The position numbers were made by a program, and so were the translations under genes. DNA of 36,134 nt, taken from Oscillospiraceae bacterium. Lineage in GTDB: Bacteria; Bacillota; Clostridia; Oscillospirales; Oscillospiraceae. The stretch lies in contig JAFRQP010000012.1 of the NCBI GenBank assembly GCA_017428565.1, forward strand, positions 1 through 36,134, in the 5' to 3' direction. The notes under the pieces are model-generated. The model had not been told where the DNA came from, did no database searches, and saw nothing but the letters and a program-made list of their open reading frames with translations. Numbering within the stretch: position 1 is the first letter of the stretch; each line of letters begins with the position of its first letter. Positions 5,907-29,705 of this stretch are shown here, one piece after another.

Positions 5907-6093
5907 CTCGGCGTCTGATATTTGTGCGCTGTGACGGATAGGAGTACGGGTTTTGCGGATCGCAGAGAGGGGACGGACGGTGCAAGTCCCTGTGATGCAG
6001 CCCGGAAGGTCGATCCTGAGCGCCCGGGGGGAAGGGAAACTGCGTAGTCCCGGCGTTTGACCCGCGTTAAGGGTTCGATGAGCGCTTTGACGC

Positions 6094-6155
6094 GTCATTC
6101 TGAGCGAAGCGAAGAATCTCATGAGATCCTTCGTCGCTTTGCTCCTCAGGATGAC
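6094..6155 (+). repeat. Dispersed palindromic repeat inside the T-box leader
   Basis: An inverted repeat begins GTCATTCTGAGCGAAGCGAA and ends CTCCTCAGGATGAC; its arms meet at CTCATGAG. It is the same family as the copy at 27875-27960. The motif is common in intergenic regions of many unrelated bacteria. Here it would form one long hairpin in the transcript. Confidence 0.85.
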
Positions 6156-6193
6156 AGGAGGAGCGGAATTCAGGTGGTACCGCGGTATTTGAT

Positions 6194-6225
6194 CGCCCTG
6201 AGACGAAAGTCTCGGGGCGTTTTTT
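6194..6225 (+). terminator. T-box regulated terminator
   Basis: The stem CGCCCTGAGAC/GTCTCGGGGCG with a GAAA loop and six T residues forms when tRNA-Val is charged. It lies about 10 bases before the ribosome-binding site of the first gene. Confidence 0.92.
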
Positions 6226-6242: not shown

Positions 6243-6758
6243 ATGGCCTTTGCCATGCATGTCGAATACGAAAAGGCGGACTTCGTGGCCTATATCAAGG
6301 CGCACGACAAAACAAAGAACCGCAAGCAGCGGATCAGTCAGTTCATACTGGCGGGGCTGTGCTTCCTGCTGGAGATCCCGATGATCCTCCTCTGTGTGGC
6401 CGGGGAGCCGGGCACGCACATCATTGTGCTGATGGTTCTGATGCCGATCCTGGGTGGGGAAATGCTGCTGATGCCGCGGATCCTGGCGGCGACGATGGCA
6501 AAAACCTACCGGAAGACGGGAAGCATCGATCTATGCTTTGGGGAGGAGGACGTCAGCGCCCGGCGGACGGTGGAAAGCACCGTGTACCAGTACGGCGCCT
6601 TTGAGAGTATATTTCACGGCAAGGAAGCCTTTTATCTCTATCTGAACCGCCAGCAGGCGCTGGTGATCCCCGAGCGCTGCTTCACCCACGGCGACCCCGC
6701 CGCCTTTGGTGCCTTTCTCGCCGAAAAGACGGGGCTTGAAGTGAAGGAATTGAATTGA
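6243..6758 (+). CDS. YcxB-like membrane protein, first gene after the valine T-box
   Basis: This 171-residue protein has two close membrane helices near residues 32-54 and 60-80, then a cytoplasmic C-terminal domain. The segment [18 protein letters not shown] near residue 130 followed by a [13 protein letters not shown] motif matches YcxB-like proteins, whose function is unknown. ATG at 6243 is preferred because GGGAGG lies eight bases upstream; the frame is open further 5' but only through the T-box. It sits between the T-box and valS, so its expression should follow valine-tRNA charging. valS begins 17 bases after its stop. Confidence 0.8.
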
Positions 6759-6775
6759 GAATACAGGAGGACAAC

Positions 6776-9400
6776 ATGAAAGAGCTTCCGAAAGTCTATG
6801 AACCCCAGAAGGTGGAAAAGAAGATCTACGACTTCTGGATGCAGGGCGGCTGGTTCAAGGGCGTCATCGACCCCGAGAAGAAGCCCTTCTCCATCGTGAT
6901 GCCGCCCCCCAACGTGACGGGACAGCTGCACATGGGTCACGCCATGGACTCCACGCTGCAGGACATCATCACCCGCTACAAACGCATGCAGGGCTATTCC
7001 GCCCTGTGGCTCCCCGGCGTGGATCACGCGGGCATCGCCACCCAGATCAAGGTGGAGGAGACCCTGCGCAAGGAGGAGGGCAAGACCCGCTACGACCTGG
7101 GGCGGGACAAGTTCCTGGAGCGGGTCTGGGCCTGGAAGGAGCAGTACGGCGACCGCATCGTGGAGCAGCAGAAGAGCATGGGCGTCAGCTGCGACTGGGA
7201 CCGCAGCCGCTTCACCATGGACGAGACCTGCGCCAAGGCCGTGCGGGAGACCTTCTGCGACCTGTATGAGAAGGGCCTCATCTACAAGGGCCGCCGCATC
7301 ATCAACTGGTGCCCCCACTGCCGCACCGCCCTCAGCGACGCGGAGGTGGAGTACAAGGACATTCCCGGCCACTTCTGGCACATCCGCTATCCCATCGAGG
7401 ACTCCGACGAATGCCTGATCATCGCCACCACCCGGCCCGAGACCATGCTGGGCGACTCCGGCGTGGCCGTCCACCCGGAGGACGAGCGCTATGCCCATCT
7501 GGTGGGCAAGAACGCCATCCTGCCCCTGGTGGGGCGGAAGCTGCCCATCGTGGCGGACGATTATGTGGAGCTGGGCTTCGGCACCGGCGCCGTGAAGATG
7601 ACCCCCTGCCACGACCCCAACGACTACGAGGTGGGCCTGCGCCACAATCTGGAGCAGATCCAGGTCATCGACGAGGACGCGAAGATCTGCGGCGGCTACA
7701 AGTATGACGGCATGGACCGCTATGAGGCGCGCAAGGCCATCGTGGAGGACTTTACGGAGCAGGGCTATCTGGTGAAGGTGGAGCCCTACAGCCACAACGT
7801 GGGCTGCTGCTATCGCTGCGGCAACGTGGTGGAGCCTCTCACCAGCCCCCAGTGGTTCGTGAAGATGGCGCCCCTGGCCAAGAAGGCCATCGAGGTGGTG
7901 AAGGACGGGCGCGTCCGCTTCGTGCCGGATCGCTTCTCCAAGATCTACCTGAACTGGATGGAGAACGTCCACGACTGGTGCATCTCCCGGCAGCTCTGGT
8001 GGGGCCACCAGATCCCCGCCTGGACCTGCGAGGACTGCGGCCACGTCACCGTCTCCCGCCAGGATCCCTGCCGCTGCGAAAAGTGCGGCAGCGAGAAGAT
8101 CCGCCGGGAGGAGGACGTGCTGGACACCTGGTTCTCCTCCGCCCTCTGGCCCTTCTCCACCATGGGCTGGCCCGAAAAGACCCCGGAGCTGGATTACTGG
8201 TACCCCACCACCGTCATGGTCACCGGCTATGACATCATCTTCTTCTGGGTGGCCCGCATGATCTTCTCCGCCATGGAGCAGATGGACAAGGAGCCCTTTA
8301 AGACCGTGTTCATCCACGGCCTGGTGCGGGACAGCCAGGGCCGCAAGATGTCCAAGTCCCTCGGCAACGGCATCGACCCGCTGGAGATCGTGGAGAAGTA
8401 CGGCGCGGACGCCCTGCGCTTCAACCTCATCACCGGCAACTCCCCCGGCAACGACATGCGCTTCTACGTGGAGAAGTGCGAGGCCATGCGCAACTTCTGC
8501 AACAAGCTCTGGAACGCCAGCCGCTTCGTGATGATGAACCTCACGATCGACCGCAACGAGCTGCCTGAGAAGCTGGAGATCGAGGACAAGTGGATCCTCT
8601 CCAAGCTCAACGACACCGTCAAAGAGGTCTGCGAGAACATGGACAGCTTCGAGCTGGGCGTGGCCGCCGGCAAGATCTACGACTTCATCTGGGACAGCTT
8701 CTGCGACTGGTATATCGAGCTGACCAAGCCCCGCCTCAACGGCGAGGACGAGGAATCGAAGATCGGCGCCCAGAAGGTGCTGCTCTACGTGCTCACCGAG
8801 ATCCTCAAGCTGGTGCACCCCTTCATGCCCTTCATCTCCGAGGAGATCTGGCAGGCCCTGCCCCACGAGGGCGAGGCGCTGATGGCGGCGCGCTACCCCG
8901 AGTTCAAGCCAGAGCTCTCCTTCCCCGAGGACGAGCAGAGCTTTGAGATGGTGATGACCGCCATCAAGGCCGTCCGCGCCCGCCGCAGCGACATGAACGT
9001 GCCGCCCTCCCGCAAGGCGCACCTCATCATCGCCACCGACAAGAAGGCCGCCTTCGAGGCCGGCAGAGACTATATCTGCAAGCTGGCCTACGCCAGCGCC
9101 GTCACCGTGCTGGACGCCGCGCCCGAGAGCACGGCCGGCATGGTCTCCGTGGTCACCGACAACGCCCGCATGTTCATGCCCATGGCGGAGCTGGTGGATC
9201 TGGAGAAGGAGCGCGCCCGTATCGACAAGGAGCTGCAGAACGCCCAAAAGATGCTCCAGGCGCAGATCGGCAAGCTCTCCAACCAGAACTTCGTCACCCG
9301 CGCGCCGGAGGCCGTGGTCAACGCCGAGCGGGAGAAGAAGGCCAAGCTGGAGGCGCTGATCGAGAATCTGAAGCTGAGCCTGGAGAATCTGGGCAAATGA
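6776..9400 (+). CDS. valS: Valine--tRNA ligase
   Basis: The enzyme charges tRNA-Val with valine using ATP in the cytoplasm. The 874-residue product has the class I HIGH-type motif as [14 protein letters not shown] near residues 42-55, an editing (CP1) domain with [10 protein letters not shown] and [15 protein letters not shown], the KMSKS motif ([13 protein letters not shown] near residue 524), an anticodon-binding domain, and a C-terminal coiled-coil arm ([20 protein letters not shown]). A zinc-binding Cys cluster (CEDCGH...CRCEKCGS) lies near residues 418-440. ATG 6776 follows CAGGAGGA; a TTG seven codons upstream lacks a site. Full length for the family. Controlled by the T-box at 5913-6226; its stop overlaps the next gene's start. 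Confidence 0.98.
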
Positions 9401-27548: not shown

Positions 27549-27728
27549 GGTGCGGCGCCGGGAGGCGCTGCACCGATCCGCTTTGCAAATGGAAAGCGGA
27601 TCGGCAGAAAGAGCTTTGCTCTTTTGCCCTGCCCTCATAACAATGAGCGTCGGGCGAATGATTCAAAAAATCATTCGCTGCCAAACTTGTCGTTTGGCAG
27701 CAAAATCAATCGGATACTCGATTGATTT
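27549..27728 (-). promoter_or_regulatory. Six consecutive hairpins in the predicted leader of the sortase operon
   Basis: Six independent stem-loops are packed in 180 bases: 27549-27574 (11 bp with one G-U), 27575-27602 (10 bp), 27603-27628 (11 bp, one bulge), 27654-27678 (10 bp), 27678-27700 (9 bp) and 27703-27728 (10 bp). Their sequences are unrelated to each other. They lie between a TATAAT at 27749-27744 and the srtB start. They could be a structured 5' leader or a set of DNA hairpins; no known riboswitch class is recognised. Confidence 0.7.
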
Positions 27729-27743
27729 CGCCTTCCGATGATC

Positions 27744-27772
27744 ATTATAGTACAGGAGTTTCGAAAAAGAAA
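27744..27772 (-). promoter_or_regulatory. Probable promoter of the sortase operon
   Basis: A perfect TATAAT (minus strand, 27749-27744) has a weak -35 (TTTCTT, 27772-27767) at 17 bases. The predicted transcript has a leader of about 240 bases. Confidence 0.5.
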
Positions 27773-27874
27773 CATAAGAAGTCTTAAGAATGACAGGGCC
27801 GCCCTGGCAATTGCTTCCAGGGGACAAAGCCTCTCCGGAAGGAGAGGCTTGGACGGCAGACAAAGCAGAGTTGT

Positions 27875-27960
27875 GTCATCCTGAACGAAGCGAAGGATCT
27901 CGCCCCCGGCGCAAGGTCGGACAGCATGAGATCCTTCGTCACTTCGTTCCTCAGGATGAC
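27875..27960 (+). repeat. Dispersed palindromic repeat, second copy
   Basis: The arms GTCATCCTGAACGAAGCGAA and its complement ending CTCAGGATGAC flank a central segment of about 30 bases. It is the same family as 6094-6155, but the centre is longer here (GCCCCCGGCGCAAGGTC). Confidence 0.85.
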
Positions 27961-28078
27961 AAAGCGGGAATGATCGTCCAGCGCCGTAGGGGCTGAGCAG
28001 AGCTGGTTTCGTTGCGCGCTCCCCGCGCGTCGCTATGCTCCCGGCAGCCCGAACTCCCGCCTCCCGTCTCTCGTCCGT

Positions 28079-28122
28079 GTCATTGCGAACCAGTGCGCAC
28101 ACTGGTGTGGCAATCCGCATCT
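28079..28122 (+). repeat. Intergenic repeat with CCAGTG/CACTGG hairpin
   Basis: The sequence starts GTCATTGCGAACCAGTGCGC and ends TGGCAATCCGCATCTC. ATTGC and GCAAT bracket an inner CCAGTG-CGCA-CACTGG hairpin. I recall similar sequences in intergenic regions of other Clostridia, but this is from memory. Confidence 0.55.
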
Positions 28123-29069: not shown

Positions 29070-29123
29070 GGGCGGAGAGAAAGGAACCACGCAAAAGCAC
29101 CAGCTTTCACAGGTGTTTGTAGA

Positions 29124-29263
29124 GCGAATGATGGGAGTCGCGTGCATGGGTTTTTCCCTCGCGGGGGGACGGGAAAAACCAATCAATGGATTCGGCGGTG
29201 TTTGCGCCGGCTCATGCAAGCCACATAGGTGGCTTGCGGATATGATTCGACTCCCATTCATGC
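29124..29263 (-). repeat. Structured repeat, copy A
   Basis: A unit of about 140 bases with four inverted repeats. The outer arms pair GGGAGTCG (29134-29141) with CGACTCCC (29248-29255). Inside are a 10-bp stem GGTTTTTCCC/GGGAAAAACC, a GGCGGTG/CGCCGGC stem, and a 9-bp GCAAGCCAC/GTGGCTTGC stem. It aligns over its full length with copy B at 29459-29597. Orientation is given relative to the neighbouring tRNA. Its nature (RNA gene or mobile repeat) is not known. Confidence 0.7.
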
Positions 29264-29413
29264 AAAAACACAGTCATGTGCAATGTTTCAAATGGCTATA
29301 CCGGCTTGCTCCGAAAACGGGAAGGAAGATATTGTGAAAGAACCCTACGCCCAGGAGGGGTGTCTTTCACGTTCAATAACCCCGCCGCGCGGATAAGTTT
29401 GCATAGCAAACTT
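29264..29413. other. Spacer between structured repeats with two hairpins
   Basis: No gene is seen. A stem of about 12 bp pairs GTGAAAGA...CCCT with AGGGG...TCTTTCAC (29334-29371), and an 8-bp AAGTTTGC/GCAAACTT hairpin sits near 29396-29414. Confidence 0.5.
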
Positions 29414-29460
29414 GCTCCAAAAAAGAGCACCTGCTGTTTGCAGGTGCTCTTTTTTGGAGC
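29414..29460 (-). terminator. Terminator-like 21-bp palindrome after structured repeat B
   Basis: GCTCCAAAAAAGAGCACCTG, extended by one C, pairs perfectly with its complement at 29440-29460 around a TGTTT loop. On the minus strand it directly follows repeat B and ends in TTTTTT. It has the same TCCAAAAAGAG start as the terminator after the tRNA gene. Confidence 0.8.
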
Positions 29461-29597
29461 GGATGATGGGAATCGCTTGCATTTCTTTTCCGCTTGCGGG
29501 GGACGCGGAAAAGAAATAGAGGAATTCGCCAGCGTTTGCGCTGGCTCATGCACATGCCACCGGCATGTGCGGATATGATTCGACTCCCCTCACCGCC
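29459..29597 (-). repeat. Structured repeat, copy B
   Basis: A unit of about 139 bases aligned with copy A. Its hairpins keep the pairing but change the sequence: TTTCTTTTCCGC/GCGGAAAAGAAA (12 bp), GCCAGCG/CGCTGGC (7 bp) and GCACATGCC/GGCATGTGC (9 bp). Shared single-stranded blocks include GCTCATGCA and GCGGATATGATTCGACTCCC. On the minus strand its 3' end reads CGATTCCCATCATCCGCTCC, which matches the T-arm and acceptor end of the adjacent tRNA-Gly at all but one of 20 positions. Confidence 0.75.
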
Positions 29598-29634
29598 AAA
29601 AAGAGAAGGGGCCTTTGGCCCCTTCTCTTTTTGG
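29596..29634 (-). terminator. Terminator of tRNA-Gly
   Basis: CCAAAAAGAGAAGGGGCC pairs perfectly (18 bp) with its complement at 29617-29634 around TTT. It begins at the CCA end of the tRNA on the minus strand and ends in TTTTT. Confidence 0.85.
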
Positions 29635-29705
29635 AGCGGATGAGGGGAATCGAACCCCCCTTATCGGCTTGGGAAGCCGGAGTTCTACCGATGAACTACA
29701 TCCGC
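29632..29705 (-). tRNA. tRNA-Gly (anticodon CCC)
   Basis: The 74-base gene encodes its own CCA end. The acceptor stem GCGGATG/CATCCGC (7 bp), D-arm GTTC/GAAC, anticodon loop TTCCCAA giving anticodon CCC (reads GGG), and a T-arm with TTCGATT between GGGGG and CCCCT are all present. The anticodon stem has one C-A mismatch at its outer pair (27-43). It decodes Gly GGG codons, in keeping with a GC-rich genome. Confidence 0.95.

Follow-up and report, generated by a model that had tools for sequence, protein, structure and literature searches.

We analysed a window of 36,134 nt (the whole stretch of DNA, from an Oscillospiraceae genome), on the minus strand of which a tRNA-Gly(CCC) gene is followed by a palindromic terminator-like hairpin (T1), a structured unit (copy B), a second such hairpin (T2), a spacer repeat (E3), a second structured unit (copy A), a third hairpin (T3) and a same-strand ORF (Table 1). 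The initial annotation had singled out A and B as two copies of one structured repeat; they are indeed 75% identical over 130 nt (E = 6e-18 in a DNA search of their own genome), and both fold beyond shuffled sequences on either strand (minus-strand z scores of −6.26 for A and −7.27 for B, plus-strand z scores of −5.23 and −4.95; 0 of 200 shuffles equalled each). Each copy comprises an inverted arm, a core of ~110 nt with three hairpins (P2, P3 and P4) and a direct arm, and the closing helix consists of the two paired arms, which are made of the neighbouring tRNA 3′ end. The end of B had been described as a copy of the tRNA 3′ end and that of A as a diverged version, and both descriptions stand (Table 1): no other 21-mer on either strand of the whole window agrees with the tRNA-Gly 3′ end at more than 15 positions. 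A terminator follows B as one follows the tRNA, as had also been proposed (T2 and T1, respectively). Two features went beyond that first reading—each element starts with an inverted copy of the T-arm, and the direct arm of A fits the tRNA-Gly of related species better than that of its own genome. A perfect, compensated closing helix of 15 bp was considered for A and rejected, as the helix is perfect in the first 10 pairs only.

Table 1. Features of the tRNA-Gly(CCC) locus, in positions of the window.
Feature	Position	Strand	Basis or match
tRNA-Gly (CCC)	29632–29705	−	ARAGORN; Rfam RF00005, 61.5 bits
tRNA-Gly positions 56–76 (arm source)	29632–29652	−	
T1, palindromic terminator-like hairpin, begins at the tRNA CCA	29598–29632	−	sequence
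B inverted arm: tRNA-Gly T-arm antisense (10 nt) and decayed acceptor part	29581–29597	−	
B core (E1 family)	29473–29582	−	R1 match, 114.8 bits; covariation
B hairpin P2	29550–29570	−	
B hairpin P3	29528–29545	−	
B hairpin P4	29481–29517	−	
B direct arm: copy of tRNA-Gly positions 56–76	29455–29475	−	20/21 nt
T2, second palindromic terminator-like hairpin	29419–29455	−	sequence
Spacer repeat E3	29318–29418	−	seen by eye
A inverted arm	29248–29263	−	
A core (E1 family)	29138–29249	−	R1 match, 105.2 bits
A hairpin P2	29216–29237	−	
A hairpin P3	29194–29211	−	
A hairpin P4	29149–29180	−	
A direct arm	29120–29140	−	own tRNA-Gly, 17/21; tRNA-Gly of five related species, 19/21
T3, terminator-like hairpin, after A	29092–29115	−	sequence

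When compared with 4,227 Rfam families at the gathering cut-off, the window yielded tRNA and T-box only, leaving the family of A and B (hereafter E1) without the existing Rfam match that, according to the initial annotation, would remove its novelty. Matches obtained at a relaxed threshold (E up to 5) were dismissed, the non-tRNA scores lying far below the gathering cut-offs, mostly on terminators, and looking like chance. The T-box leader (RF00230, 94.5 bits; window 5922–6203, plus strand) stands some way upstream of a large ORF (6755–9400) that looks like a valyl-tRNA synthetase gene. Elsewhere in the window (~6057–6200 and 27671–28120), ORF translations containing HSERSEESHEILRRFAPQDD and HPEERSDEGSHAVRP look like another dispersed repeat read as protein. 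The spacer repeat E3 (~100 nt, between B and A) recurs between two tRNA-Leu copies (L009) and is also present behind a tRNA-Thr gene of another species (L193).

Copies and their surroundings

A DNA search of the source genome returned 12 places and one match of an inverted-repeat kind. With a covariance model (R1) built from cores and at most 3 letters of each arm, the family proved far larger than two copies: the genome holds 18 strong ones (E below 1e-16), 14 of which follow a same-strand tRNA gene at a distance of no more than 600 nt. Two more belong to a tmRNA array (L028; tmRNA identified by Rfam), one of them 59 nt behind the tmRNA and the other further down, and another sits behind a displaced 3′ half of tRNA-Pro, adjoining an integrase island. 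The remaining copy (contig C75) has no RNA gene nearby and adjoins a serine recombinase gene, and its arms resemble a tRNA-Ala end (16/18). Random placement, which the initial annotation would have taken as the sign of a plain repeat, is thus the opposite of what was found, with 17 of the 18 strong copies tied to a tRNA or tmRNA gene or to the displaced tRNA half. A copy from another genus (L096) likewise follows a tmRNA. The displaced tRNA-Pro half was observed on contig C51 (L232), where an integrase island (Pfam Phage_integrase) in tRNA-Pro(CGG) has carried the 3′ half away together with an E2-like/E1 array (E2 is described below).

Across all genomes (G146, discussed below, excluded), 36 of 74 distinct matches begin 49–62 nt after a tRNA and 8 more lie within 600 nt. 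The tRNA genes concerned are of at least 16 kinds, in addition to tmRNA. The layout is tRNA, terminator-like palindrome, inverted T-arm, core and direct copy of tRNA positions 56–76, and where a tRNA is close by the unit is constantly oriented as the tRNA is. No tRNA was found within 600 nt of the other 30 matches, two of which stand directly behind tmRNA; a mere 8 of these 30 have less than 150 nt of upstream sequence (L041, L042 and L078 have at least 1,500 nt and no tRNA within 600 nt), and the closing helix retains at least 8 of 10 pairs in 24. Of 36 first units, 32 are set off from their tRNA by a hairpin of at least 8 bp with TTTT; judged by eye, none precedes the tandem second unit at tRNA-Lys. 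Also by eye, these terminators are unrelated where the cores are ~90% alike, indicating that the terminator does not travel with the core.

E1 is patchy between species: at E < 1e-10, R1 matched 18 of 37 genomes of the genus, that of the window included (incomplete MAGs, one genome per species). R1 had no match at E up to 0.01 in 23 genomes that belong to the order but to other families. An order-wide search with R1 matched 6 of 394 genomes, namely the source genome, G304, G349 and G385 from the same family, and G146 and G150 from other families. G146, which contributes 8 of 82 distinct matches, was not retained as a host, its matches having no tRNA arms and looking like another repeat; that repeat, AAGCTTTCGCC...GGCTGCGGGTTCTC, is weakly picked up by R1 (L089, L092, L095, L097, L100, L102, L104 and L105). 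The match in G150 (L088) is doubtful as it has no closing helix, and one further copy (L031) is doubtful as well. If G146 or G150 were real, E1 would extend beyond one bacterial family; doubtful matches aside, it is seen in one family only. A second model that takes in distant copies (R2) found a match in 31 of the 400 family genomes searched, spread over 16 of their 106 genera. Of 391 genomes sampled across the class, it matched the source genome alone; these large searches used stricter filters, at which weak matches are lost. Among 26 R2 loci in other genera (including L261, a training-set member, and two apparent chance matches, L280 and L281), 16 have a tRNA within 600 nt upstream (27–237 nt), and the arms match in 15. 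Hosts found by the core pattern are MAGs labelled Oscillospiraceae, Ruminococcaceae, Clostridiales or Clostridia; the rumen or abomasum of ruminants is named in 3 of 22 such records, and RUG names presumably denote rumen genomes. Viral contigs held 0 stretches with the core pattern. A copy accompanies 58 of 300 tRNA units, but E1 itself had led to many of these loci, which biases the sample; less biased sets, chosen for similarity of tRNA or gene, gave 8 of 28 for tRNA-Thr, 4 of 21 for tRNA-Lys and 2 of 10 for tRNA-Gly.

Arms, cores and hairpins

The arms follow the local tRNA. In ungapped comparisons of 36 elements, the direct arm agrees with its own tRNA at frequencies of 0.72–0.97 per position over 56–65 and 0.56–0.83 over 66–75, falling to 0.42 at position 76 and to 0.25–0.47 beyond it, that is, to background after CCA; the inverted arm agrees at 0.86–1.0 over 56–65 and then drops, except at the A/T-rich start of the terminator (these averages include L050 and L051, whose T-loop is misplaced and which were left out of the acceptor ranking below). 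The own tRNA fits the direct arm better than every tRNA of the set with another anticodon in 27 of the 36 elements. When the acceptor part is compared, the best-fitting tenth of tRNAs includes the own tRNA for 29 of 34 direct arms versus 13 of 34 inverted arms. The inverted arm of L083 is perfect through the acceptor into the terminator, as are those of L035 and L079 after one small indel. In the source genome, the sequence downstream of 13 of 39 tRNA genes, and that upstream of 0 of 39, repeats positions 56–73 of the same gene, compared with 17 downstream copies in 1,478 trials with probes of other tRNAs; 2 of the 39 genes have short downstream stretches (52 and 565 nt), and 10 of the 13 genes with a downstream copy are E1 loci.

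A comparison of 390 T-arm cells from 39 elements showed 354 to be identical to the tRNA on both strands, 28 to differ on one side and 8 on both; 7 of these 8 pair and 1 does not. The 7 paired changes fall in three elements: two are those of A and fit another tRNA-Gly, and the other two elements belong to tRNA-Ala. Both arms of A carry C59 and A64, the letters of tRNA-Gly at the related loci L115, L118, L122, L126 and L127, which are absent from the tRNA-Gly of the source genome and from L107–L110. To judge from these sequences, the arms look as if they were copied at birth and then decayed, and were not steadily matched to the present tRNA.

The cores are common to different tRNAs. Cores behind different tRNAs reach up to 92% identity (1,519 pairs, none ≥93%), and the direct arms of the 14 closest such pairs agree at 5–13 of 18 nt. 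A tree of 60 cores requires 38 changes of tRNA label (43.1 when shuffled; minimum 16), a slight clustering that was as low in 1 of 200 shuffles, so that part of the distribution appears to be inherited in place; the tree has few columns and many open forks and is poorly resolved. The tree and the core-pair comparison left out 18 divergent, doubtful or incomplete elements.

The hairpins were reported to keep pairing while their sequence changes, and the larger family bears this out. In 11 copies from the source genome, 19 of 35 pairs are changed on both sides, 91.9% of cells are paired, and 57 cells are double-changed, as against 19.6 in shuffled alignments and at most 6 with slid partners. G-U makes up 9 of 1,775 cells (0.5%) in P2–P4 of 57 distinct copies (from the best 75 rows) and other mismatches 72; for tRNAs of the source genome, the 468 cells of acceptor and T stems include 39 G-U (8.3%) and 9 other mismatches. 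Five out-of-frame elements were dropped from the analysis that gave these counts and those of the T-arm cells. As G-U is tolerated no better than other mismatches, the hairpins behave like DNA palindromes. This strong covariation almost without G-U is suggestive of DNA palindromes more than of RNA without being proof, and selection on RNAs from both strands would give a similar scarcity.

These data bear on the two possibilities raised by the initial annotation, an undescribed non-coding RNA co-oriented with tRNAs and a small mobile repeat at tRNA 3′ ends. In the former case, E1 would be a functional structured RNA that is read through from the tRNA promoter, has a closing helix mimicking an acceptor/T-arm minihelix, is cut out by tRNA-processing enzymes and acts on tRNA supply. 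The orientation shared with the tRNA, a four-way, cloverleaf-like fold with strong covariation, the end of the direct arm at CCA and a closing helix that is mostly kept (the 354 unchanged T-arm cells) would suit such an RNA, but it would have to be read past the hairpin and TTTT that separate most first units from the tRNA, would hardly tolerate G-U, would have an inverted arm whose acceptor part is recognisable in 13 of 34 cases only, and was not found at E < 1e-10 in 19 of 37 genomes of the genus (incomplete MAGs). The lack of an Rfam family suits an RNA that is undescribed and counts against one that is functional. We therefore regard a functional RNA as unlikely. The mobile repeat is the better supported of the two possibilities, the element being multicopy and patchy, with local arms and a common core.

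Other core types occupy the same position. In the source genome, a different core (E4) is flanked by an inverted and a direct copy of the local tRNA at tRNA-Tyr and tRNA-Arg(CCG), and so is a third (E2) at tRNA-Val(GAC); the layout of tRNA, terminator, inverted copy, core and direct copy was seen for E2 or E4 at L204, L207, L138, L209, L168 and L186. Behind the tRNA-Lys of G006 (L138), four units alternate between the E2 and E4 kinds. The arms of E2 come, by eye, from slightly different tRNA positions (inverted 44–58, direct from ~49). Labels of E2 and E4 assigned by regular expression are guesses (several E1 relatives, the B of the window included, were labelled as possible E2), and class counts were not used. 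At tRNA-Thr of G002 (L186), an E2 unit that terminates in a copied tRNA 3′ end is followed by a terminator, the first E1-like bases and the contig end; a similar terminator and E1 come directly after the tRNA-Thr of G033 (L188). Comparison of G030 with G443, G006 and G436 shows presence and absence of a module for a unit without a clear inverted arm. Such tRNA-Thr pairs indicate that modules come and go at CCA, gain and loss looking alike; the clean presence/absence pairs are of other unit types than E1, and loss by recombination between direct copies would look the same. An ORF behind the tRNA-Thr of G436, tested as part of a supposed integrase island, proved to be a glycosyltransferase.

Possible origin of the units

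No transposase, recombinase or reverse transcriptase tied to E1 was found. A Y1 transposase had no match at threshold in the source genome and matched 33 of 61 genomes of the genus; the RAYT-like subset occurs in 8 of 18 E1-positive versus 3 of 19 E1-negative genomes (hand count; Fisher p = 0.08), and R1 did not detect E1 at any of the 14 RAYT-like loci read in the genus (L242–L255). By eye, GTAGGGGCG-type palindromes, which form a repeat family of their own, lie close to about 9 of these 14 loci. Reverse transcriptases are present in 19 of the 61 genomes, with one in the source genome, and their presence had no relation by eye to E1 copy number. The stretches between direct copies measure 44–367 nt, too short for a full integrase gene.

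The last figure bears on whether the units are leftovers of tyrosine-recombinase islands, which would double the tRNA 3′ end on integrating at the T-loop and, once deleted, leave a short scar behind. The att duplications of such islands usually span the T-loop to CCA, which are the limits of the direct arm, and the tRNA-Pro island of the source genome adjoins units. However, the 420 nt of that island nearest the tRNA show neither an inverted arm nor a core, one core would have to fit at least 16 tRNA kinds and tmRNA, a full integrase gene has no room in the units, and the inverted arm is unaccounted for. Island leftovers are accordingly improbable, more so than a functional RNA. Slightly less probable again are by-products of template switching during replication, produced sense–antisense–sense between the terminator and T-arm palindromes with no dedicated enzyme. 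They would explain the layout of sense tRNA end, terminator, antisense arm, core and sense copy, together with the antisense arms of L083, L035 and L079 that run on into the terminator, but neither the conserved core common to tRNAs and species nor the terminators that differ on the two sides.

The explanation that we favour, with a probability of about 0.62, is that E1 is a non-autonomous cassette of ~140 bp that is inserted at tRNA and tmRNA 3′ ends and has arms templated by its target. One event would add a module right after CCA, composed of the terminator-like palindrome, the inverted T-arm, the core and the direct copy of positions 56–76; with the module added there, the tRNA remains whole and keeps a terminator behind it. 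Both arms would take their sequence from the target as the unit arises and would decay afterwards, the core being the travelling part that probably moves between loci. E1 may act as DNA, through single-strand hairpins or through template switching that involves two palindromes, that of the terminator and TTCGAA of the T-loop; the latter is its own reverse complement. An enzyme may act in trans. DNA synthesis could turn at the terminator palindrome, copy the tRNA end antisense as far as the T-loop, pass over the core template and return to the sense tRNA end. More tentatively, one process in this bacterial family may repeatedly add small hairpin cassettes at tRNA and tmRNA 3′ ends, remaking both cassette ends on the template of each target. 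It would serve at least three core types (E1, E2 and E4), tRNA-proximal arrays would lengthen by one unit at a time, in the way that CRISPR arrays extend from the leader, and such cassettes would form a class of mobile DNA whose hallmark is ends templated by the target in place of fixed ones; we consider this possible, at somewhat less than even odds.

The cassette resembles several known systems in part. Short, non-coding, multicopy and built of near-perfect DNA palindromes, E1 is like MITEs and REP-type repeats with a Y1 transposase (RAYT). Unlike MITEs, it has no fixed terminal inverted repeats, its arms differing by locus and following the local tRNA, and unlike REP repeats with RAYT, it is absent at the 14 RAYT-like loci and its own genome has no RAYT at threshold. 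Casposons make a long target duplication and insert at tRNA 3′ ends. E1 shares with them and with CRISPR spacer acquisition the long target duplication and the tandem arrays of repeat and unit, and differs in its inverted target copy and common core. It is folded and covarying and has a tRNA-like 3′ end, as tRNA-like structures and Rfam non-coding RNAs do, but differs from the latter in having no gathering-score match and almost no G-U. Tandem inversion duplications have a sense–antisense–sense order at two palindromes, an order that E1 units share; in E1, by contrast, the segment is 10–21 nt and a conserved core occupies the second turn. Integrative elements target the 3′ part of tRNA and tmRNA genes, duplicate the T-loop-to-CCA end and leave the tRNA intact. 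E1 is like tyrosine-recombinase islands in its place at this 3′ part, its doubled T-loop-to-CCA end and the intact tRNA. It is unlike them in its size (~140 bp), the absence of an integrase and the presence of a terminator in the unit, the use of one core behind at least 16 tRNA kinds and the additional inverted T-arm copy. We found no description of such units in the literature searched, which included few subscription journals.

Mobile elements are normally recognised by their constant ends, whereas E1 keeps a constant middle between ends that vary with the host gene. If E1 copies its target into its own termini, it does so by an insertion chemistry that we did not find in the literature searched. 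E1 may also leave fossils of tRNA sequence, as suggested by the arms of A, which fit the tRNA-Gly of other species. Because its arrays may record successive events beside essential genes that stay intact, E1 may provide a natural assay.
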